A DNA stretch of 64,000 bases from Acidobacteriota bacterium (lineage in GTDB: Bacteria; Acidobacteriota; Blastocatellia; Chloracidobacteriales; Chloracidobacteriaceae): the NCBI GenBank assembly GCA_016208495.1, contig JACQXX010000028.1, positions 62,001-126,000 of the forward strand, written 5' to 3'. Of this stretch, positions 11,514 to 62,975 are shown piece after piece (position 1 is the first letter of the stretch; each line of letters opens with the position of its first letter). The notes beneath the pieces were generated by a model that did no database searches, was not told the origin of the DNA, and worked only from the letters and a program-made list of their open reading frames with translations. The position numbers were made by a program, and so were the translations under genes.

Positions 11514-11640
11514 AAAAAGTGGTTAGTGGTTAGTGGTTAGTGGTTAGAAATCAATACTTTCGAAGAAGAACCAGGAACCAAGAGCCAGGAATCAAGAACT
11601 AACCACTAATCACTAACCACTAGCCACTAAATAGTTTCTT
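11514..11640. repeat. GTGGTTA heptad element with inverted arms
   Basis: Four GTGGTTA units (from about 11519), then GAAATCAATACTTTCGAAGA, then drifting ACCAGGA/ACCAAGA/GCCAGGA units grade into ACTAACC units, the reverse complement of the left array. The whole 120-bp element is in 7-base register and could fold into a long hairpin between the kinase stop and the acpH start. Confidence 0.8.
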
Positions 11641-16984: not shown

Positions 16985-17250
16985 ATTATAGTGAAATAGT
17001 AGAAAGAGCGAAATAGGGAAATAGCAAAATAGAAGTGAGTAGCGAGTAGCGAGTAGCGAGTAGCGAGTAGCGAGGAGTCAACCCAGGAAGAGTGAGTAGC
17101 GAGTGGCGAGTAATCAACCCAGGAAGAGTGAGTAGCGAGTGGCGAGTAATCAACCCAGGAAGAGTGAGTAACCAATAGTCAATCCAACTCAAATAGCCAG
17201 TACCAGACTTTGATTGACACTACTCGCTACTCGCTACTCGCTACTCACTT
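16985..17250. repeat. GAGTAGC heptad array with 36-bp higher-order repeats and inverted arm
   Basis: Units of GAGTAGC run from about 17035. From about 17070 a longer unit of roughly 36 bp (AGCGAGTGGCGAGTAATC followed by AACCCAGGAAGAGTGAGT) is repeated, the first copy shortened. An inverted GCTACTC array lies at about 17218-17247. The middle TTGATTGAC matches the right edge of the cores at 2755 and 10771, so this is probably a decayed third copy. No gene is present. Confidence 0.8.
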
Positions 17251-19035: not shown

Positions 19036-19297
19036 GCCGATAGTGGTTAGTGGTTAGTGGTTAGTGATGCAAGTTAAGGGTTGGAAATCTATTTGTTAGA
19101 AATAAAGGATTTATTGGGATTTCAAATTTCAGTCGGTTAACCTGCTGTCTGGAAGTTGCTAATTTTGAAGGCTCGATTTCAACTCTTAATTCGCATATTG
19201 ATTAGTGGTTAGTTGTTGGTTCCTGGTTCTTCTTCGAGCATATTGATTTCTAACCACTAACCACTAACTACTAACCACTAACCACTAACCACTTTCT
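19036..19297. repeat. GTGGTTA heptad-bracketed element
   Basis: GTGGTTA units begin 5 bp after the stop of the upstream gene. Inverted TAACCAC units (19250-19292) end 5 bp before the stop of the OmpA gene on the other strand. The interior of about 180 bp holds TTCCTGGTTCTTCTTCGAGC and TGATTTCTAACC, the reverse complement of the motif shared with 11540 and 27870. Confidence 0.8.
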
Positions 19298-24603: not shown

Positions 24604-24795
24604 GGTTCGCCCTTCCAAACGTGCCTACGAGGTTAGCTGACGGATTCGGGCTTGGAAGTGCCCTACTGGAGATCACTCATTGCTGAAGATCAATCCAGAT
24701 TCACCCCAGAAAGCCGGCATCACACAAGCTGACGACTGGCTTCCAGTTGGTTCCCCCGCTCTACTTCTTTCGTTGCAAAGTAGACTCGGCTGCAA
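24604..24795 (-). promoter_or_regulatory. Cyclic di-AMP (ydaO/yuaA) riboswitch aptamer
   Basis: On the minus strand the conserved blocks of the ydaO/yuaA class occur in order: GCCGAGTC near 24790; GCGGGGGAACC; TCTGGGGTGAATCTGG; CAGTAGGGCA; CCCGAATCCGTCAGCTAACC; CGTAGGC; and GGAAGGG near 24607. The match to the known consensus (GGAACC, GGGGUNAAUC, CAGUAGGG, CCGNCAGCUAAC, AGGC, GGAAGG) is extensive. A terminator follows directly. This class binds two c-di-AMP molecules and usually turns expression off when ligand is present. Assignment is from memory of the consensus, not a covariance search. Confidence 0.88.
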
Positions 24796-24828
24796 AGTTC
24801 TGACAAACAACCTCAAAAACTGATGACT

Positions 24829-38483: not shown

Positions 38484-41400
38484 TTACAGGAAGGTTGAGA
38501 GTTGACTGTTGATACCCTCTTGCATTTTTTCAAGGATTTGCATGTATTCTCTGAAAACCTGGATAATTGCTTCTGGCTCGAAATAGGCAATGTCGTAGGT
38601 CGCCCATATCGAAACAGATTGACTTGGTGTGATACTGAGGCTGAGCGGATAATGCCAGACATCATAGCATTCTTCTTCTGCCCATTCCAAATCAGTGGTT
38701 GATGGATTTTTGGCTTCGCCCCGGTAGTAGTTTTGAAAACGGATTACACTTAAACCCTTGAGTGCCTGGATTGAAGGATATTCTGATGGGCAGTCTGCCC
38801 CCCAGGGAAAATGTGGAACTTGCTGTATCTCTAGCAATTGGGTATGAAGCGCCTGAATCCATTCAATCACAAGTTGCTGTTTTGAAAGGTGCGTACATAA
38901 AGGTACTGTATTCATCAGTAGCCCAACAATAAATTCAGCCTTTGGTAGATCAATTGCTCGTCCTGAAACAGTGACTCCAAAAGTTATGAAAGGCTGATCA
39001 TTATGGCGAGCCAAAAGCAAAGCCCAGGCTGCCTGGAAAAGAGTGCTCAACGTTATCTGGGCCGCCCTGGCAACCTGTGAGAGCCTTTGAGTTTGAGTTT
39101 CTGAAATGGTGAAGTGATAACCACTATATTGTTGACCCATTTCACTTTTTGAAAGGGTTTTTCGTGTATAAGGAAGGATCGTAGGCTGCGATACTTGAGA
39201 AAGAACCTGTCTCCAGAAATGTTGAATTGGCTGTAAATCCTGATTTTGATACCACTTCCAAAAAGTATTGTAACTTGGGGAGGTTGGGAGTTGAGGATTT
39301 TTTCCTTGAGATAGGGCTCGATAGACAATTTGAACTTCATTCAAAACGAGAGACACACTCCATCCATCAACCAGTAAGTGAGGTAGTGTCCAAACCAGCC
39401 AGGCTGTGGTTGAGGAAGTTTGAATAAAACTAAGCCTCAAGAGGGGGGCTTCGTCCAAATCAATCCTTCGCTCTCGATCTTGTATCAACCAGGATCGAAA
39501 TTGGGCTCTTTGTTCCTCAAAGGGAAGGTTTGTCCAATCGAGTTCAACCCAATAATCCTGCTGTTTACCCAGAATAAGTTGAAGAGTACCAATTTCATCC
39601 TGGTTGACAAAGACACTTGAAAAAATCGGGTGGCGTTGCAACACGTATTGCCACGCCGTTTTCAGTTTCCCCGTATCAAAGTGGCCTTTCACTTCTATTG
39701 CATTTTGCAACCGGTATACACTTAGGTTGGGAGTCTTTTTGAGGTGTTCCAGCATGGCTTGCTGACCAGCAGTTAGTGGGAACACCGCTTTGGCTGAGTG
39801 ATAGCGTTGGAGCAACCAGGATTGCTGTTCAAAACTGAGTTGGACAAAACTGTTTTCAAAGTGTGGAGATCCCTGACCTGATCCAGATCGAAGTTGATCA
39901 ATGATTGACCGGAGTTTAATCATGAGTAATTGGGTAAGATGATCAACGGTTCCCAGATGATGAACATTGGTGCCATACGCCCAATCAATTTTAAGTTGCT
40001 TATTTTGAATTGCTGCAGAGAAATCAAATAAGTATTTTCTCTGGGCACGGGGACTATGAAATCCTCCATCAATTGACTCTAATTGGTTAAACAATTGAGA
40101 GTTTCCGATTGTCTGATCAATCTGACTCAAGTAATTGTAACTGATTTGTGCCTGGGGGAGTTGTGAAAATTGGACTTGAACCTCTGGATCACTCAAATAT
40201 CGGAGAACCCCAAATCCAATTCCCCGGTTTGGAACTTTGCTCAGGGTGGTTTTCACATGCTGAATGGCGGCATTCATTGTGGTTTGCGGTGCGACCTCAA
40301 TAACAAGTGGATAAATCGAAGTAAACCATCCAACTGTTCGAGACAGGTCAACATTTTGGAAAAGGTCTTCACGGCCATAGCTTTCCAAGTCAATGAAGAC
40401 TGTTTGACTTTGTGTCCATTCAGAAATTGTCAGAATAAGACAGGAAAGAAGTACCTCATTGACAGATACCTGGAAAGTAGGCTGGAGTTGCCGCAGAAGA
40501 CACTCCGTTTCGGACTCGTTCAATGAAACACTAATGTGCGCAACGGAACCTTCGGTATTAATTCCCTGACTATTAACTGGCAAAATGCCAACTGATCCCC
40601 AATTCAGACCAAGCCAGTATGCTTGCTCCTGTTTGAGTGTTTCTGAGTCTGCATAGCTTCGAAGTTGTTTAGCCCAGTGTTGAACTGGTGTTGTTTTCAT
40701 CGGCAACTGGACAGGTAGTTCTTGAAGGATTTGCAAATAGGCAGTCTCCAGGTCTTCCAAAAGAATCCGCCAGGAAATTGCATCCACAACCAAATGATGG
40801 ATGGCAATAAATAATTGGTCGGTTTCAGTTTCCCCAAATGAAAGCTGAATCATCCGGATGAGAGGGCCTTCGGAAAGGTTCAAGCTGGCTTGAGCTTCTC
40901 TGAGAGCTTGATCACATTTTTTCTTTCTTAATTCATTTGGGGCGTCAGAAAAAGCGATATGTATATAAGGAAGATTGTCATCTGGTTGCTGGTATGACTG
41001 AACCCATTGGCCTTCCTCAAAGAAAAACCGGGTGCGCAGGGCATCATGCTGTACAAGCAACCTGAAAAGCGCTTTTTGGAGGATTTCGTCTTTTAATTTA
41101 TCCTTCGTGCTGAGCAGAATTGCCTGATTCCAATGATGTGAATCTTCCAGATTTTGCTCAAAAAACCAGCATTGGATTGGTGTTAGCAAGCCAGAACCTA
41201 AAACGAGACCCTGTTCGCTGGTTGCTATTTGAGGAGTTACACTCCTTTGAGCAAGCTGAGCAATCGTTGGGAATTGAAAGAGTTGTTTTGGAGAGATTTG
41301 AACCCCAGCCTGATTGGCTTTTGAAATTACCTGAATACTCAAAAGCGAATCACCGCCCAAAGCAAAGAAGTTGTCATAAACTCCAACCTGTGTCAGTCCA

Positions 41401-44400
41401 AGTACCTCACACCAAATTCGAGCAAGTGTAGTCTCTGTTAATGTTTGAGGAGCCGTAAATTCGACTTTGCTGGTTACTCCATATTCAGGAGCCGGAAGGA
41501 GTTTGCGATCTACCTTGCCGCTGGTGGTGAGGGGGAAGGTCTCCAGGGTGACAAAGGTCGCTGGAATCATATAGTCCGGCAATCGCTGGCCAAGGTGTTG
41601 ACGCAGGTCAGCCGGGGAAGGAGTTGTTCCAGCCGGGAGCACGTAGGTGACAAGGCGTTTGTCACCGGGACGGTCTTCACGAGCCATCACCACGGCCTGT
41701 CGAATGCCAGGATGGTCTTCCAGTGCGGCTTCAATTTCACCGAGTTCAATCCGAAAGCCACGAATCTTGACCTGATGGTCAAGGCGGCCAAGGTATTCAA
41801 TATTGCCGTCAGGGAGAAACCGGGCAAGGTCACCGGTTCTATACAGGGTTCGGGGTTCAGGGTTCAGGGTTTGGCCTTGAGCCTGGGAAAGTTCCGATGT
41901 TTCCCTGAAGCCTTGCTCCAAACTTTCCTTAGCCTGGCCATCAATTGAATCATGCTCTGTTGCTTCAGAATCTCTGAACCCTGAACCCTGAACCCTGACC
42001 CCTGAGATGAATTTCTCAGCCGTCAGTTCCGGACGATTCCAGTAGCCGCGACCAACCCCGATTCCGCCTATATGCAATTCACCGGGAACTCCAATCGGGG
42101 TTGGCTGGCCGAAGGAGTCGAGAATGAAAATCTGAAGATTGGCAATCGGACGACCAATCGGGACAAAGGGAAGTGGAGAATTGGGTGTGCATTCCCAAAA
42201 GGTGACGTCCACTGCTGCTTCAGTCGGGCCATAGAGGTTGTGGAGTTCGCACAAGAGCCGGTCAAAGAACCGTTGCTGAAGGTCGAGCGAAAGGGCTTCA
42301 CCGCTACAGATGACCCGTTTGATCGAGGTGCAGGTTTCAACCTGTTCTGCCTGGAGAAAGGCCACCAGCATTGACGGAACAAAATGCAGGGTAGTGATGT
42401 GATGCTGGCGGATTACCTCAACCAGATAGGCTGGATCTTTGTGCATCCCAGGTTGGGCGACAACCAGTTGGGCACCAGTCAGAAGTGGCCAGAAGAATTC
42501 CCAGACCGAGACGTCAAAACTGAAGGGTGTTTTTTGAAGGACGCGATCTGCTGGGGTGAGGTGATAGGCATCCTGCATCCAGCAGAGGCGGTTGACGATT
42601 CCCCGATGCTCATTCATTGCACCTTTGGGTTTCCCCGTGGACCCAGAGGTGTAAATGACATAGGCAAGATGGGTTTCAGTTACGGGACTGGCAAGATTGT
42701 GAACTGGAAAGTTGGAAAGTGTGGACCAGTCACGATCAAAACAGAATACCTGAGCGGAAACCGACTGTAACCGATCAAGCAAGGTCGAATGGGTCAGAAC
42801 GACTGGCGCCTGGGCATCTTCAATCACATAGGCGAGGCGATCCTGGGGATATTCGGGGTCAAGCGGGACATAGGCACCACCGGCTTTGAGGATGGCGAGC
42901 AAGCCAACGACCATTTCCAGGGAGCGTTCAACACAGATCCCAACCAGGACATCCGGACCAACGCCCTGGTGCTGCAGGGAATGGGCGAGTTGATTGGCCT
43001 GGGAGTTGAGTTCGTGGTAGGTCAAAGACTGGTCTTCAAAGACAATTGCGATGGCATCTGGGGTGCGTTCAACCTGGGCTTCAATCAACTGGTGCAGGCA
43101 GACATCACGCGGGTAATCAGCCTGGGTGGCATTCCATTCGACCAGCAGTTGGTGGCGTTCAGCTTCAGTCAGGATTGGGAGGTGTCCAACTGGGAGAGTT
43201 GGATTTGAAACGGCCCCAGTCAGGAGGGTTTCATAGTAGCTGAAGAACCGGTCAATGGTTGATTGGTCAAAGAGATCGGAATTGAATTCAAAGGTGATAG
43301 CCAGTCCCTGGGGAGATTCCTCGACGTCACAGGTCAGATCAAATTTGGCAATCCGGGTTTCACTTTCCACCAGTTCAAGCTGCAGGTCGCCAAAATCAAA
43401 CGTGAGGTGGGGTGTGTTCTGCATCACGAACATCACCTGAAACAAAGGCGAACGACTCAAATCCCGTTCGGGATGGAGTTCTTCAACCAGCTTCTCAAAG
43501 GGAACATCCTGATGGGTAAAGGCATCCACCGTGGTTTGGCGAACCTGGGCGAGCAAGTCAAGAAACGTGGGATTGTGGGAAAGGTCAGCGCGCAGAACCA
43601 GGGTGTTGACAAACAGACCAATCAGGTTTTCGGTTTCAAGCTGGTTGCGCCCGGCGATGGGGGTGCCAACGGCAATGTCACTCTGCCCACTCAGCCGATG
43701 GAGCAGGGTCTGGAATCCGGCCAGCAAGACCATAAACAGTGTGGCGTGGTGCTGACGGCTAAGCTGAGTAAGCTGGTCAACCAGTTCCCTGGAATAGAGG
43801 GTCTTCACTCGTGCCCCCCGAAAACTCTGGATTGCTGGTCGGGGTCGGTCGGTGGGGAGGTTGAGTGATTCCAGGCCCGCCAGTTGTTGTTTCCAGTAGT
43901 CAAGCTGAGGTCGCAACCGCTCATCCGTCAGCCAACCGCGTTGCCAGACGGCAAAGTCGGAATATTGAATCGTGAGTGACGGCAAGGGGGATGGCTGGTG
44001 ATGGAGAAAGGCTTGATACAGGGTGTGGAGTTCAGTGAGGAAAACACTCAACGACCAGCCGTCGGCTGCGATGTGATGAATGGTCACCAGGAGAATGTGC
44101 TGGTCTGGCGCCAGGCGCAGCACGGAAAAGCGGATCAACGGGCCTGCCGTGAGGGAGAACGGCTGATGGGCTTCCTGACTGGCAAGGGTCTGGACCTCGG
44201 ATTCCTGGTCAGGTACCGACAGGGAGGAAAGATCAGTGATTGAGAGCTGTTGATCACCAACCGGTGCAATCACTTGCACTGGCTGACCGTCAACCTGAGC
44301 AAAAGTGGTGCGCAGGGCTTCGTGGCGGGAAATGATTTCATTCAGACTCTGGGCCAGGGCCTCAACATCAAGCGGTCCGCTGAGTCGGAGCACGCCCGGC

Positions 44401-47400
44401 ATATTGTACATCGGGCTATCTGGTTCAAGTTGATCCAAAAACCAGAGGCGTTGCTGGGCAAACGACAGCGGCAGGTGCTGATCGCGTAAAACCCGACTGA
44501 TCGGAGGTGAAGCCTGAAAATCTGCCTGAGGATGAGCCACAAGCTGAGAGAAAGCTTCCAGAGTTGGCGCTTCAAACAGGGAACGCACCGGGAGTTCAAT
44601 CTGAAGCACCGTGCGCAACCGGGAAATAACTTGAGTGGCCAGAAGTGAATGTCCTCCCAGTTCAAAGAAATGGCTGTGTAGATAAAGGGGGCTATCCCCC
44701 AGGACCTCCCGCCAGATTCCAGCCAGAATCTCTTCGAATGGGTTCAACATGCGGCTGGTTGGGAGTGATTGGTCTAGTTGGTATCCTTCTGGTGGAGGCA
44801 AAGCACGCTGATCAATTTTCCCATTAGGTGTCAAAGGAAATGAATCGAGGATCACAAAAGCGGCAGGGAGCATATAGGCAGGGAGCCGCTGGCTCAAGTA
44901 CTGACGCAGGTTATTGATCGGAATTTGTGCTTCGGGTGCAAGTAAATAGGCGACAAGGCGTTTGTCGCCTGGGCGATCTTCGCGAACCACAACCAATGCC
45001 TGTTTGATAAATGGATGATTTCCCAAAGCCACTTCAATTTCACCCAATTCGATGCGAAAACCACGCAACTTAACCTGAAAATCAATGCGTCCGAGGAATT
45101 CAATATTTCCGTCAGGAAGATACCGGGTAAGATCGCCAGTGCGATAGAGGCGGGCTGTAGGATCGGATGAAAAAGGGTTTGGAATGAACTTTTCAGCAGT
45201 GAGTTCAGGTCGATTCAAATAGCCACGAGCGAGACCGTCACCGCCAATGCAGAGTTCACCAGGGACGCCGATTGGAACAAGCTGCAAATTACGGTCTAGA
45301 ATATACGCCTGAACATTGGCCATAGGGCGGCCAATTGGAAGTTCTGTCCAGGTTTCCATTTCAGGCGACCAGGCCGGTGGCGCATAGGCAATGCACGTCA
45401 CGGTTGCTTCGGTCGGACCGTAGCCGTTGATCCAGGGTGCACGGCCTTGGCCAAGTTTTTGCCATTGGGCCGATGTGACCGGCGAGGCTTTTTCCCCGCC
45501 AACAAAAGCAATTCGCAGACTGACGGGAAGTGGTGTGTTTGAGGTGACCAGTTCACGTGCCAGTTCGCTAAAGTAGGCCGTCGGTGGGTCAATTACCGTT
45601 ACTCGATGGCGGTCAATAAATTCAATAAATTCAGCGTAAGATGGAACAACTTTGTGGGTTCTAAGCACTACTGTGGCGCCACAAGTCAAGGCTGAAAATA
45701 TCTCTTCGGCAGCCGTGTCGAAATTGAGTGAAGCAAATTGCAAGAAACGGTCGCTGGCACTCAGTTTCAGCAGGTGCTGAACTGCGGAACACAAATTGAC
45801 GATGTTTTGATGAGTGATCAACACCCCTTTGGGCAGTCCGGTTGAGCCTGAAGTGTAGATGACATAGGCCAGATTCTCGGGTTCCGGGTTCTGGGTTCCG
45901 GGTTCCGGGTGCTTGAAGGTTGAAGATTCAAATGTGTTGATGTTCACAATCTCTGACTGGTGGGCAGGTAAAAAAGCTTCGGATTTATTGTCGGTCACAA
46001 TCACCGGAAACTGGGCATCCTGAATCATAAAGATCAGGCGTTCTTGCGGATAGGTTGGGTCAAGTGGAACATAGGCGCCACCAGCTTTGAGGATTGCCAG
46101 TAATCCGATGACCATTTCCAAGGAGCGTTCGACACAGATCCCAACCAGGACATCTGGACCAACGCCCTGGTGCTGCAGGGAATGGGCAAGTTGGGTGGCC
46201 TGGAAATTGAGTTCACCGTAGGTCAGGGACTGGTCTTCAAAGACAACCGCAATTGCATCTGGGGTTCGTTCAATTTGGGCTTCAATCAACTGGTGCAGGC
46301 ACACGTCACGCGGGTAATCAGCCTGAGTGGCATTCCATTTTTCCAATAGGTCAAGTTCATTTTGTGACACAAGTTGCAACTGATCAATTAAGCAGGTTGG
46401 TGCCTTGAGTGAAGAATCAAGCAATGTCTGATAATTGAGGGCCATCCGTTCAATTGTCGTTTTTTCAAACAAATCGGTATTAAATTCCAAAGAAAGGATG
46501 AATCTTTCTTGAGTTTCAACGACGGCCAGTGACAGGTCAAACTGCGCGATTCGTTCCTCAACCGGATACGGGGCAATTTGTAATCCACCAAAATCAACTG
46601 GTGGCTGGTCTTTCCCCGAGATCAGGGCTGAAAGATGATGTAAGCCCTGTTCTGGCAAGCGATCAAAGACAAAAGAACATTGAAAAAGTGGTGATCGGCT
46701 TGGGTCACGGACCGGGTTTAATTGTTCAACGAGGAGCGGGAATGGATAATTTTGATGGTCCAATGCCTCAAACACTGTTTGCTGAACCTGTCGCAAAAAT
46801 GTCAGAAAATCAGGATTCCCGCCACAATTGGCCCTCAATACCACTGGGTTGACAAAATAGCCAACACAGCGATTGAACTGAGTTGAAGTCCGACCGGCAA
46901 ATGGACTCCCAACCCAAATATCATCTTCTTGGGTGTACCGATGGAGTAAAATGTAGAAGGTAGTAAGAAGCACTACAAAAGGCGTGGTTTTCGCTTCAAG
47001 AGTAAAGTGTTTAAGCCGTTCAGATAAGCCTTTGTTGACGACAGTTTCAATCTTTGTACCCTGGTAGGTTTGTATCTGAGGACGAGGTTTATCAGTTAAC
47101 AGATTAAGTAATGGTGCATCTCCGGCAAGTTGTGTTTTCCAGTAATGCCAATCATTTTTGCCAGATTCGGAGTGTAACCACTGTTCCTGCCATTGCACAA
47201 AACCGGCATAAGTAGATTGAATTTCTGGTAATTGTACTTGAATGTTAGTCATCTCCGCTTTGTATAGTTGGCGTAGCTCATCAAGTAGAATAGTCAACGA
47301 CCAGAAATCAATTACAATGTGGTGCAGAACAGTCAACAGCACGTAGTCCAACTTTGAACAACGCCACAAACTCACTCTGAGGATTGGGCCTTGAGAGAGG

Positions 47401-47810
47401 TCAAACGGGCGATAAGCTTCTGACTTCAGGTCTGAATCAATAATTTCTTTGGCCCAGTTGGTGGCGTCGATTTCTACAAAAGAGACATTCAAATGTGGGT
47501 GGACGATCTGAATTGGTATTCCATTTTGAACACCAAACGTTGATCGCAACACTGGGTGGCGATCAATCAATTTTTGAAATGATTGACGGAGAGCTGTAGA
47601 GTTAACTGGAGAGGTAATACGTAGCGATGAAATGACGTGATAGGCACTGCTTTCTGGGGTTAGTTGGTGCAGAAACCACAAAGCACGTTGACCGTGTGAG
47701 AGGGAGTGGCTTTCCGGGCGAGGCTGATTTTTGATCTCAAGAAGTTTTTTTAAAAGTGCACGTCTTTGCTCTGTGGTCAGATTGGAAATATCTGGGAGAT
47801 CACTGCCCAT
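38484..47810 (-). CDS. Nonribosomal peptide synthetase, C-A-T-C-A-T-E-C
   Basis: A 3108-residue dimodular NRPS. The N-terminal docking-like helix (LTTEQRRALLKKLLEIK) precedes C1 (HHIVIDFWS near 163), A1 (about 500-1000, YTSGSTGLPKG near 650), T1 (LGGHSLL near 1052), C2 (HHIAADGWS near 1248), A2 (about 1565-2100), T2 (LGGDSLL near 2150), an epimerisation domain (HHLVVDAISW near 2340) and a terminal C domain (PHLLVDGWS near 2810; the first His is Pro, the catalytic His is kept). By hand alignment with GrsA, A2 reads about DVWFISLVDK, 7 of 10 positions as in the Ser code DVWHLSLIDK; A1 reads about DTEDFGGVTK, substrate not assigned. No thioesterase or reductase follows. Both A domains contain in-frame heptad repeats. 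It overlaps the PKS gene by 11 bp. Confidence 0.95.
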   Translation of the reverse strand: MGSDLPDISNLTTEQRRALLKKLLEIKNQPRPESHSLSHGQRALWFLHQLTPESSAYHVISSLRITSPVNSTALRQSFQKLIDRHPVLRSTFGVQNGIPIQIVHPHLNVSFVEIDATNWAKEIIDSDLKSEAYRPFDLSQGPILRVSLWRCSKLDYVLLTVLHHIVIDFWSLTILLDELRQLYKAEMTNIQVQLPEIQSTYAGFVQWQEQWLHSESGKNDWHYWKTQLAGDAPLLNLLTDKPRPQIQTYQGTKIETVVNKGLSERLKHFTLEAKTTPFVVLLTTFYILLHRYTQEDDIWVGSPFAGRTSTQFNRCVGYFVNPVVLRANCGGNPDFLTFLRQVQQTVFEALDHQNYPFPLLVEQLNPVRDPSRSPLFQCSFVFDRLPEQGLHHLSALISGKDQPPVDFGGLQIAPYPVEERIAQFDLSLAVVETQERFILSLEFNTDLFEKTTIERMALNYQTLLDSSLKAPTCLIDQLQLVSQNELDLLEKWNATQADYPRDVCLHQLIEAQIERTPDAIAVVFEDQSLTYGELNFQATQLAHSLQHQGVGPDVLVGICVERSLEMVIGLLAILKAGGAYVPLDPTYPQERLIFMIQDAQFPVIVTDNKSEAFLPAHQSEIVNINTFESSTFKHPEPGTQNPEPENLAYVIYTSGSTGLPKGVLITHQNIVNLCSAVQHLLKLSASDRFLQFASLNFDTAAEEIFSALTCGATVVLRTHKVVPSYAEFIEFIDRHRVTVIDPPTAYFSELARELVTSNTPLPVSLRIAFVGGEKASPVTSAQWQKLGQGRAPWINGYGPTEATVTCIAYAPPAWSPEMETWTELPIGRPMANVQAYILDRNLQLVPIGVPGELCIGGDGLARGYLNRPELTAEKFIPNPFSSDPTARLYRTGDLTRYLPDGNIEFLGRIDFQVKLRGFRIELGEIEVALGNHPFIKQALVVVREDRPGDKRLVAYLLAPEAQIPINNLRQYLSQRLPAYMLPAAFVILDSFPLTPNGKIDQRALPPPEGYQLDQSLPTSRMLNPFEEILAGIWREVLGDSPLYLHSHFFELGGHSLLATQVISRLRTVLQIELPVRSLFEAPTLEAFSQLVAHPQADFQASPPISRVLRDQHLPLSFAQQRLWFLDQLEPDSPMYNMPGVLRLSGPLDVEALAQSLNEIISRHEALRTTFAQVDGQPVQVIAPVGDQQLSITDLSSLSVPDQESEVQTLASQEAHQPFSLTAGPLIRFSVLRLAPDQHILLVTIHHIAADGWSLSVFLTELHTLYQAFLHHQPSPLPSLTIQYSDFAVWQRGWLTDERLRPQLDYWKQQLAGLESLNLPTDRPRPAIQSFRGARVKTLYSRELVDQLTQLSRQHHATLFMVLLAGFQTLLHRLSGQSDIAVGTPIAGRNQLETENLIGLFVNTLVLRADLSHNPTFLDLLAQVRQTTVDAFTHQDVPFEKLVEELHPERDLSRSPLFQVMFVMQNTPHLTFDFGDLQLELVESETRIAKFDLTCDVEESPQGLAITFEFNSDLFDQSTIDRFFSYYETLLTGAVSNPTLPVGHLPILTEAERHQLLVEWNATQADYPRDVCLHQLIEAQVERTPDAIAIVFEDQSLTYHELNSQANQLAHSLQHQGVGPDVLVGICVERSLEMVVGLLAILKAGGAYVPLDPEYPQDRLAYVIEDAQAPVVLTHSTLLDRLQSVSAQVFCFDRDWSTLSNFPVHNLASPVTETHLAYVIYTSGSTGKPKGAMNEHRGIVNRLCWMQDAYHLTPADRVLQKTPFSFDVSVWEFFWPLLTGAQLVVAQPGMHKDPAYLVEVIRQHHITTLHFVPSMLVAFLQAEQVETCTSIKRVICSGEALSLDLQQRFFDRLLCELHNLYGPTEAAVDVTFWECTPNSPLPFVPIGRPIANLQIFILDSFGQPTPIGVPGELHIGGIGVGRGYWNRPELTAEKFISGVRVQGSGFRDSEATEHDSIDGQAKESLEQGFRETSELSQAQGQTLNPEPRTLYRTGDLARFLPDGNIEYLGRLDHQVKIRGFRIELGEIEAALEDHPGIRQAVVMAREDRPGDKRLVTYVLPAGTTPSPADLRQHLGQRLPDYMIPATFVTLETFPLTTSGKVDRKLLPAPEYGVTSKVEFTAPQTLTETTLARIWCEVLGLTQVGVYDNFFALGGDSLLSIQVISKANQAGVQISPKQLFQFPTIAQLAQRSVTPQIATSEQGLVLGSGLLTPIQCWFFEQNLEDSHHWNQAILLSTKDKLKDEILQKALFRLLVQHDALRTRFFFEEGQWVQSYQQPDDNLPYIHIAFSDAPNELRKKKCDQALREAQASLNLSEGPLIRMIQLSFGETETDQLFIAIHHLVVDAISWRILLEDLETAYLQILQELPVQLPMKTTPVQHWAKQLRSYADSETLKQEQAYWLGLNWGSVGILPVNSQGINTEGSVAHISVSLNESETECLLRQLQPTFQVSVNEVLLSCLILTISEWTQSQTVFIDLESYGREDLFQNVDLSRTVGWFTSIYPLVIEVAPQTTMNAAIQHVKTTLSKVPNRGIGFGVLRYLSDPEVQVQFSQLPQAQISYNYLSQIDQTIGNSQLFNQLESIDGGFHSPRAQRKYLFDFSAAIQNKQLKIDWAYGTNVHHLGTVDHLTQLLMIKLRSIIDQLRSGSGQGSPHFENSFVQLSFEQQSWLLQRYHSAKAVFPLTAGQQAMLEHLKKTPNLSVYRLQNAIEVKGHFDTGKLKTAWQYVLQRHPIFSSVFVNQDEIGTLQLILGKQQDYWVELDWTNLPFEEQRAQFRSWLIQDRERRIDLDEAPLLRLSFIQTSSTTAWLVWTLPHLLVDGWSVSLVLNEVQIVYRALSQGKNPQLPTSPSYNTFWKWYQNQDLQPIQHFWRQVLSQVSQPTILPYTRKTLSKSEMGQQYSGYHFTISETQTQRLSQVARAAQITLSTLFQAAWALLLARHNDQPFITFGVTVSGRAIDLPKAEFIVGLLMNTVPLCTHLSKQQLVIEWIQALHTQLLEIQQVPHFPWGADCPSEYPSIQALKGLSVIRFQNYYRGEAKNPSTTDLEWAEEECYDVWHYPLSLSITPSQSVSIWATYDIAYFEPEAIIQVFREYMQILEKMQEGINSQLSTFL
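41844..42005. repeat. Heptad-bracketed element inside the NRPS A2 domain
   Basis: GGGTTCG/GGGTTCA units (41844-41871) and the inverted CCCTGAA array (41972-42005) enclose a core of about 100 bp. The element is read in frame, adding about 50 residues (GVRVQGSGF ... TLNPEPRT, residues about 1936-1989) between ELTAEKFIS and LYRTGDLAR, where A1 has only about 11 residues. Confidence 0.88.
45878..45918. repeat. GGGTTCC heptad array inside the NRPS A1 domain
   Basis: Four to five units of GGGTTCC/GGGTTCT in the coding sequence, read on the minus strand as HPEPGTQNPEPE just before NLAYVIYTSGSTG. The corresponding site in A2 (before ETHLAYVIYTSG) has no repeat. Confidence 0.85.
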
Positions 47811-60639: not shown

Positions 60640-61479
60640 ATGCAAACACATACACCAATGGGGAACTCACCGTTCGAACGCCTGGTTGAGGTCATGGCTC
60701 GCCTCCGCGCACCAAATGGATGCCCGTGGGATCGCGAGCAAACACACGCCACTTTGAAACCCTACTTGATCGAAGAAGCCTATGAGGTGCTTCAGGCCAT
60801 TGATGATGACGATGACGAGGAATTGAAAGCCGAACTTGGAGATGTGCTGCTTCAGGTTGTGTTTCATTCGCAGATTGCGACTGAAACCGGACGATTTTCC
60901 GTGGATGATGTCATTGGAGTGTTATGTGCCAAGCTCATTCGCCGCCATCCACATGTTTTTGGAGAGACTGAGGTTTCCGGAACACACGAAGTGCTTCAAA
61001 ACTGGGAATCCATCAAAGCCCAGGAGAAAGCCGCCAAAGCCGAGGCCACCGGCACCGCAGTTAAAAAATCCCAACCAGCTTCATTTTTGGACAATGTCTC
61101 GCCCAAAATGCCACCGCTCATCGAAGCCCGCCAGTTGACGGAGCGCGCGGCCTATGTGAAATTCGATTGGGAACGCCCTGAAGATTGTCTCGACAAACTC
61201 CACGAAGAAGTTGACGAACTCAAAGCCGAACTGACCGCACCAACCCTCAACCATCTGGCGATTGCCGATGAAGTTGGCGACCTGCTCTTTGTCGCCGTCA
61301 ACATTGCCCGACTGCTCAAAGTTGACCCGGACAGCGCGCTCAAAAATGCCAACCGCAAGTTCCGCCGCCGCTTTGGCTATATCGAACAGGCTCTGGCCCG
61401 CGAAGGGAAAACTATTCAAGACAGTAATTTGGAAGAAATGGAACGCTACTGGCAGGAAGCCAAGCAAGGGGAGAAGTGA
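60640..61479 (+). CDS. mazG: Nucleoside triphosphate pyrophosphohydrolase MazG
   Basis: A 279-residue all-alpha NTP pyrophosphatase that hydrolyses NTPs to NMP and PPi, clearing non-canonical nucleotides. The first MazG domain has LRAPNGCPWDREQTHATLKP, EEAYEV and ELGDVLLQVVFHSQIA with its Mg-binding EExxE and ExxD residues. The second domain, after a linker, has EEVDELKAEL and DEVGDLLFVAVNIARL. The two-domain length is normal. The start at 60640 or the ATG at 60658 both keep all motifs. The TGA stop is part of the first GTGACAAG unit of the following array. Confidence 0.95.
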   Translation: MQTHTPMGNSPFERLVEVMARLRAPNGCPWDREQTHATLKPYLIEEAYEVLQAIDDDDDEELKAELGDVLLQVVFHSQIATETGRFSVDDVIGVLCAKLIRRHPHVFGETEVSGTHEVLQNWESIKAQEKAAKAEATGTAVKKSQPASFLDNVSPKMPPLIEARQLTERAAYVKFDWERPEDCLDKLHEEVDELKAELTAPTLNHLAIADEVGDLLFVAVNIARLLKVDPDSALKNANRKFRRRFGYIEQALAREGKTIQDSNLEEMERYWQEAKQGEK

Positions 61480-61655
61480 CAAGGTGACAAGGTGACAGGG
61501 TGACCAAGTGACAAGGTGACAGGGTGACAAGGTGACAAGGTGACCTTTTGACAAGGTGACCAAATAACCAAATGAAAAGAATTGAGAGTCTGTCACCCTG
61601 TCACCTTGTCACCCTGTCACCTTGTCACCTTGTCACCCTGTCACCTTGTCATTTT
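61476..61655. repeat. Inverted GTGACAAG octamer arrays between mazG and threonine aldolase
   Basis: About ten units of GTGACAAG/GTGACAGG (61476-61562), a 30-bp spacer, then about eight inverted CCTTGTCAC/CCCTGTCAC units (61591-61652). The two arms can form a very long hairpin. Each array starts at or next to the stop codon of the gene it follows. Confidence 0.88.
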
Positions 61656-61661
61656 GTCATT

Positions 61662-62709: not shown

Positions 62710-62975
62710 ATTAGGGTTCGGGGTTCGGGGTTCGGGGTTCAGGGTTCGGGGTTCGGGGTTCGGGGTTAGAAAGTATCGTTGAAATTTCTGGTGTCGAAAT
62801 TCGCAAATGGGGGGCTACAATATCTTGTGGACTCCAGTTGTGCAATCCAGAGCGACCCACTAAAAGACAAGCAAAAAATAAATTCGAAAACCCTGAATCC
62901 TGAACCCCGAACCCCGAAACCCGAACCCCGAACCCCGAACCCCGAACCCCGAACCCCGAACCCCGAACCCCGATT
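62710..62975. repeat. GGGTTCG heptad-bracketed element between divergent genes
   Basis: Eight units of GGGTTCG/GGGTTCA (62712-62767), a core of about 125 bp, then the inverted CCCCGAA array of about eleven units (62893-62970). It fills the whole space between the divergent ltaE and sirtuin genes, so their promoters must lie in or between the arrays. Confidence 0.88.

Follow-up and report, generated by a model that had tools for sequence, protein, structure and literature searches.

The Rickettsia palindromic elements (RPEs) form recognisable families located in unrelated genes, and we know of no RPE with tandem heptads. They are palindromes of ~150 bp that lie in frame within protein genes (reviewed in PMC10969869). 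A second related group consists of the G-rich heptad repeats of Rehm et al. 2015 (PMC4692102), GGGAATC in Xanthomonas and GGGGA(C/T)T in Nostoc. In the parts of that paper used here, Xanthomonas contains close convergent inverted pairs (70 and 75 cases), arrays often have four units, and the repeats are under-represented in coding regions; NRPS loops are not described in those parts. REPINs, as presented in the corresponding part of PMC3116915, are made of two inverted directional repeats flanking a short spacer. Finally, Baunach et al. 2021 (PMC8097286) describe natural exchange of the Acore subdomain of NRPS adenylation (A) domains as common, and no repeats are mentioned in the sections on which we rely.

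The case reported here combines heptad pairs of the Xanthomonas/Nostoc type with in-frame palindromes of the Rickettsia type, in the A6-A7 loop of NRPS A domains. In common with the heptads of PMC4692102, as far as its cited parts go, it has a 7-base unit, a genome-wide and mostly intergenic distribution and convergent inverted pairs; it differs from them in its many coexisting heptad families and its plentiful in-frame NRPS arrays. As in RPEs, the element is palindromic and stands in frame inside an otherwise conserved gene. Unlike RPEs, it is hosted by a single loop in a single domain family and has variable cores, and no palindromic core shared by genic and non-genic copies was found, the searched cores occurring at full length in A domains only. 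The inverted directional repeats around a spacer recall REPINs as outlined in the cited part of PMC3116915, but the unit is a heptad array and not a REP, and the Y1 transposase genes lie mostly away from arrays. Heptad repeats and in-frame palindromic elements are known; new are the NRPS setting and the occurrence of the hotspot in more than one phylum: in the literature outside subscription journals, with the work on Nostoc small repeats covered through citing papers and sources partly in extract, we found no earlier report of repeats in A-domain loops. We consider it probable that a palindromic, slippage-prone and polarised heptad element, as found in intergenic DNA, occupies the disordered A6-A7 loop without breaking the frame, and that there it is tolerated, slips and is copied between modules.

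Results

The window, a stretch of 64,000 nucleotides, comes from the draft genome of an Acidobacteriota bacterium (8.4 Mb in 177 contigs), whose taxonomic family also includes a genus with two-contig genomes of 3.7 Mb. An NRPS gene of 3108 aa occupies positions 38484..47810 on the minus strand, according to the list of open reading frames, the translation and Pfam, which recognises four condensation, two adenylation and two carrier domains. Within the second adenylation domain, A2, positions 41844-42005 read (GGGTTCA)n, then a core of ~100 bp, then (TGAACCC)n. An earlier note on this DNA had described inverted heptad arrays around such a core, and we recovered them: the arms, at 41844-41871 and 41977-42004, are 28 nt each and 93% complementary, with ~102 bp between them. 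In the sense of the gene, on the minus strand, the 5' arm of G-rich heptads (41974..42005) is translated as SGVRVQGSGF, the core of ~102 bp between the arrays (41872..41973) as ~34 residues, and the 3' arm of C-rich heptads (41844..41871) as TLNPEPRTL. The element cannot be due to chance because the folding energy of its coding-strand RNA, -81.1 kcal/mol, is far below that of shuffled sequences (mean -51.8, z -6.7); a strong hairpin would thus be carried by the transcript. An Rfam search matched no family at this position.

The A6-A7 loop of A2, from AEKF to YRTGD, is 55 aa long and in frame. In A1 of the same protein this loop has only 13 aa, and 13 aa is the median of 76 loops taken from 80 named relatives or loci; in LgrA ~5 residues separate the two flanking motifs. 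The insert amounts to ~42 residues beyond the usual loop. The earlier note had counted about 50 extra residues inserted in frame; the frame was right, the number was somewhat high, and, since the native loop residues of A2 are missing, the element replaces the loop and does not interrupt it.

We then asked how this element compares with the repeats found elsewhere in the genome. Our census covered 1.29 Mb of DNA, with genes called by a simple codon model. At a score of at least 14, it contained 302 arrays with a period of 7, whereas period 8 accounted for 44, period 6 for one and periods 2-5 for none; the 7-bp tandem unit therefore exceeds the other unit lengths, as for the Xanthomonas/Nostoc heptads. 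With a cut-off of 13, 325 arrays in 48 heptad families were obtained, and 280 of them lay outside predicted genes though ~80% of the DNA is coding, again a mostly intergenic distribution like that of the Xanthomonas/Nostoc repeats. The third property of these repeats, a fixed polarity with G-rich arms facing, was found in all inverted pairs (G-rich arm 5' in 41/41). The unit (GGGTTCA)3 is present 1198 times in this genome, 762 times in G001 of the sister genus and 57 times in G021. It is abundant in no further genome of the class, being rare or absent in the remaining sampled members, and none of the seven genomes of genus g4 contains it. Judging from their sequence, GGGTTCA arrays could form a G-quadruplex; AGTGGTT and AGTAGTC lack a G3 run.

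Four intergenic elements of the window, without assigned strand, served for comparison: (AGTGGTT)n with (AACCACT)n at 11518..11629, (GAGTAGC)n with (CTACTCG)n at 17037..17246, (TAGTGGT)n with (CTAACCA)n at 19041..19293, and (GGGTTCG)n with (AACCCCG)n at 62714..62973. The core of the third resembles a copy in locus L063 (76% over 130 bp). The second encloses a 36-bp tandem repeat of 3.1 copies (17058-17170). An octad counterpart of the heptad elements, with inverted arrays of 8-bp units (GGTGACAA and TTGTCACC), is located at 61465-61560 and 61590-61659, and a c-di-AMP riboswitch (ydaO/yuaA, 83 bits) at 24607-24801 on the minus strand. The earlier note had attributed to the A2 element the architecture of the intergenic ones, and this holds for the arms, the polarity and the spacing. 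The core is another matter: no other copy of it was found in the genome, and no intergenic copy was found for any of the A-domain cores that we searched. As the searched coding cores are absent between genes, it is only the heptad, the polarity and the spacing that may point to a common source with the intergenic elements.

True dispersed repeats exist among the intergenic elements: the ACTACTG family (core at L055 3340-3466) comprises at least 40 copies, in both orientations and with unrelated flanks, whose conserved core of ~120 bp is 83-91% identical. This family, together with the invariant polarity of the pairs and the presence of a common element in non-sister A domains (see below), might suggest a true mobile element, MITE-like or REPIN-like, mobilised by a transposase acting in trans, with the heptad arrays as terminal inverted repeats, and entering genes as well as intergenic DNA. 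We nevertheless hold such an element to be unlikely, because most AACCCTG elements lack a common core, full A-domain cores are limited to A domains, no target-site duplication is visible by eye at the listed element boundaries, and an array lies within ~1.5 kb of only one of the genome's nine matches to Y1 transposases. The latter count also led us to reject a REPIN/RAYT system, for which a repeat-flanked Y1 gene is expected.

Within the NRPS genes, evidence for copying came from pairs of A domains. The elements of L030_1661 and L031_54 reach an identity of 0.88 over 160 nt, and of 0.85 in the core, while both flanks are at 0.64; those of L029_2091 and L031_1191 are 0.94 identical over 86 nt with a downstream flank at 0.68; one upstream flank value (1.00) was left out as an artefact of free end gaps. 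Shared elements are thus 85-94% identical at the nucleotide level and their flanks only ~60-70%, and a tree of A-domain cores does not place the partners of these pairs as sisters. Such high identity between non-sister domains with divergent flanks indicates that the element was copied between modules, by either conversion or transposition. When the two shared elements were searched genome-wide, full-length matches were obtained in A domains only. The groups of the A-domain core tree span both genera, and in orthologous clades the heptads differ between the two genera. Likewise, in the loop before A3 of the sister pair formed by A1 of the window (44745-46256) and L031_4597 (L031 4622-6211), one domain has AACCCGG and the other AACCCCC-like units; as their A3-A6 regions are 83% identical, the heptads must turn over rapidly in place. 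The same pair is an example of natural Acore exchange, with identity dropping from 83% of nucleotides in A3-A6 to 52% after A7. In the census sample, ACAGGGG, AGCCCCC and ATCCCCC are confined to coding arrays. According to the earlier note, the element can move or expand into genes and stay in frame. Persistence in frame is borne out, and the same loop is involved repeatedly; with no intergenic match to the searched cores and with coding-only heptads, our results demonstrate that elements are copied from one A domain to another and that heptads turn over in place, and do not demonstrate movement from intergenic DNA into genes.

The mosaic structure of A domains at the A6-A7 junction, as in the pair above, and the frequent Acore exchange in NRPS (PMC8097286, cited sections) raise the question of whether the loop arrays are kept as landing pads that promote swaps of the substrate-binding Acore from one module to another. 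We observed discordance across the loop in 6/11 pairs with two arrays, 12/17 with one and 3/4 with none; although these numbers are small, discordance is no commoner where arrays are present, which leaves a role of arrays as recombination promoters unsupported. We therefore consider a landing-pad function very unlikely and did not retain it. In a broader form of this idea, to which we attach just as little probability, paired G/C-rich hairpins in A6-A7 would be preferred sites of NRPS module exchange at the DNA level, recruited separately here and in Nostoc as an engine of peptide diversity. Mosaic A domains in which the Asub part is retained occur here as in the exchanges of PMC8097286; in contrast to the cited account of these, arrays are present, yet they are unnecessary for mosaicism.

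The A6-A7 loop proved to be an array hotspot in both related genera and, separately, in Nostoc. The source genome has 11 NRPS A domains above the cut-off in all, and 10 of them bear arrays in this loop. The eleventh, A1 of the window, has its array in the variable loop before A3 instead (HPEPGTQNPEPE, 45878..45910, minus strand), which is the second in-frame heptad array of the 3108-aa gene. In the sister genus, arrays are located in A6-A7, before A3 and in one Asub loop. With few exceptions, array sites are loops of naturally variable length. Array density, in arrays per kb, was compared between the A6-A7 loop and all other NRPS coding DNA: it is 11.25 versus 0.22 for the source genome, 3.70 versus 0.34 for the sister genus, and for four Nostoc genomes 4.12 versus 0.09, so that the loop has ~10-50 times the density of the remainder of the same genes. 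Of the 54 A6-A7 loops sampled in Nostoc, 22 contained arrays in frame, with units of 7 or 8 bp, among them AACAGTC, GGGGACT and AGCAGGGG; this rate is biased because the four genomes were selected for one long-looking loop apiece. None of five A6-A7 loops of Crocosphaera had an array. In Microcystis A domains (L237, L239), a different palindromic repeat, CCCCCCTAACCCCCCTTGATAAGGGGGG, is in frame in this loop. Comparison with relatives, which the earlier note had proposed as a check, established the 13-aa loop as the usual state and extended the arrays to the sister genus and Nostoc. It did not reveal the same loop sequence in organisms without such repeats: among the 76 loops of the 80 named loci, the ten of at least 20 aa are all cyanobacterial, a group known for repeats of this type.

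An AlphaFold prediction (57 sequences) had a mean pLDDT of 89.8, with 38-48 in the insert blocks and ~95 in the domain body, and the predicted structure matched solved PDB A domains with Z values of ~50-58. The proposal of a tolerant loop just before A7 is in agreement with this model. The insert is best interpreted as a loop, predicted to be disordered, on an otherwise normal enzyme, and in A2 it would most likely be a neutral disordered spacer. Its presence in almost every module of the genome could alternatively mean that it has a use, as a linker, in partner docking or in regulation. That it is a selected protein feature of this kind seems extremely unlikely to us, however, as the inserts vary by module in sequence, length (31-78 aa) and heptad type, and are predicted to be disordered, and as relatives have ~13 aa at this place.

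Coding copies of the arrays are purged of stops. The AACCCTG of the C-rich arms yields TGA in one of its three phases. In the NRPS genes of the source genome, T occupied the stop phase in 0 of 12 cases versus 17 of 27 in the other phases; when the sister genus was included, the values were 1/13 versus 19/29 (Fisher p = 0.0006), and the single stop-phase T must precede a non-stop base because the frame stays open. Intergenic arrays have T at that position in 335 of 563 cases. In the 3' arm of the A2 element, the heptad in the stop phase is AACCCCG (CGA) rather than AACCCTG (TGA). Moreover, AACCACT, which contains stops in both strands, forms 28 arrays between genes and none in coding DNA. An assembly artefact, conceivable in a draft of 177 contigs with repeats that are difficult to assemble, is hardly credible, because the pattern is seen independently in many unlinked modules, in another genus and in several assemblies of Nostoc, always in open frames and with stop-phase substitutions.

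Discussion

We propose the following scenario for the tolerated heptad element. Arrays would arise or arrive nearly anywhere, and those in genes would last only where extra residues of any sequence are harmless. The A6-A7 loop may tolerate changes in length and sequence best, the loop before A3 and one Asub loop less so. Slippage would then lengthen the arrays and change their heptads, and the recombination or gene conversion already usual in NRPS genes could copy them from one module to another.

In two phyla, one loop of a large enzyme family thus gives shelter to simple-sequence DNA, and it offers an unusually clear natural record of repeat DNA turning into protein sequence. For NRPS engineering, A6-A7 would be a natural insertion-tolerant site, and the effect of repeat arrays on module shuffling becomes testable. 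Such loops also run the risk of being taken for errors by annotators.

Outside NRPS genes, coding arrays mostly occupy gene ends and apparent linkers that are rich in proline or disordered. A large gene at L046 5242-10665, hemagglutinin-like by eye, carries in-frame heptad arrays in both senses.
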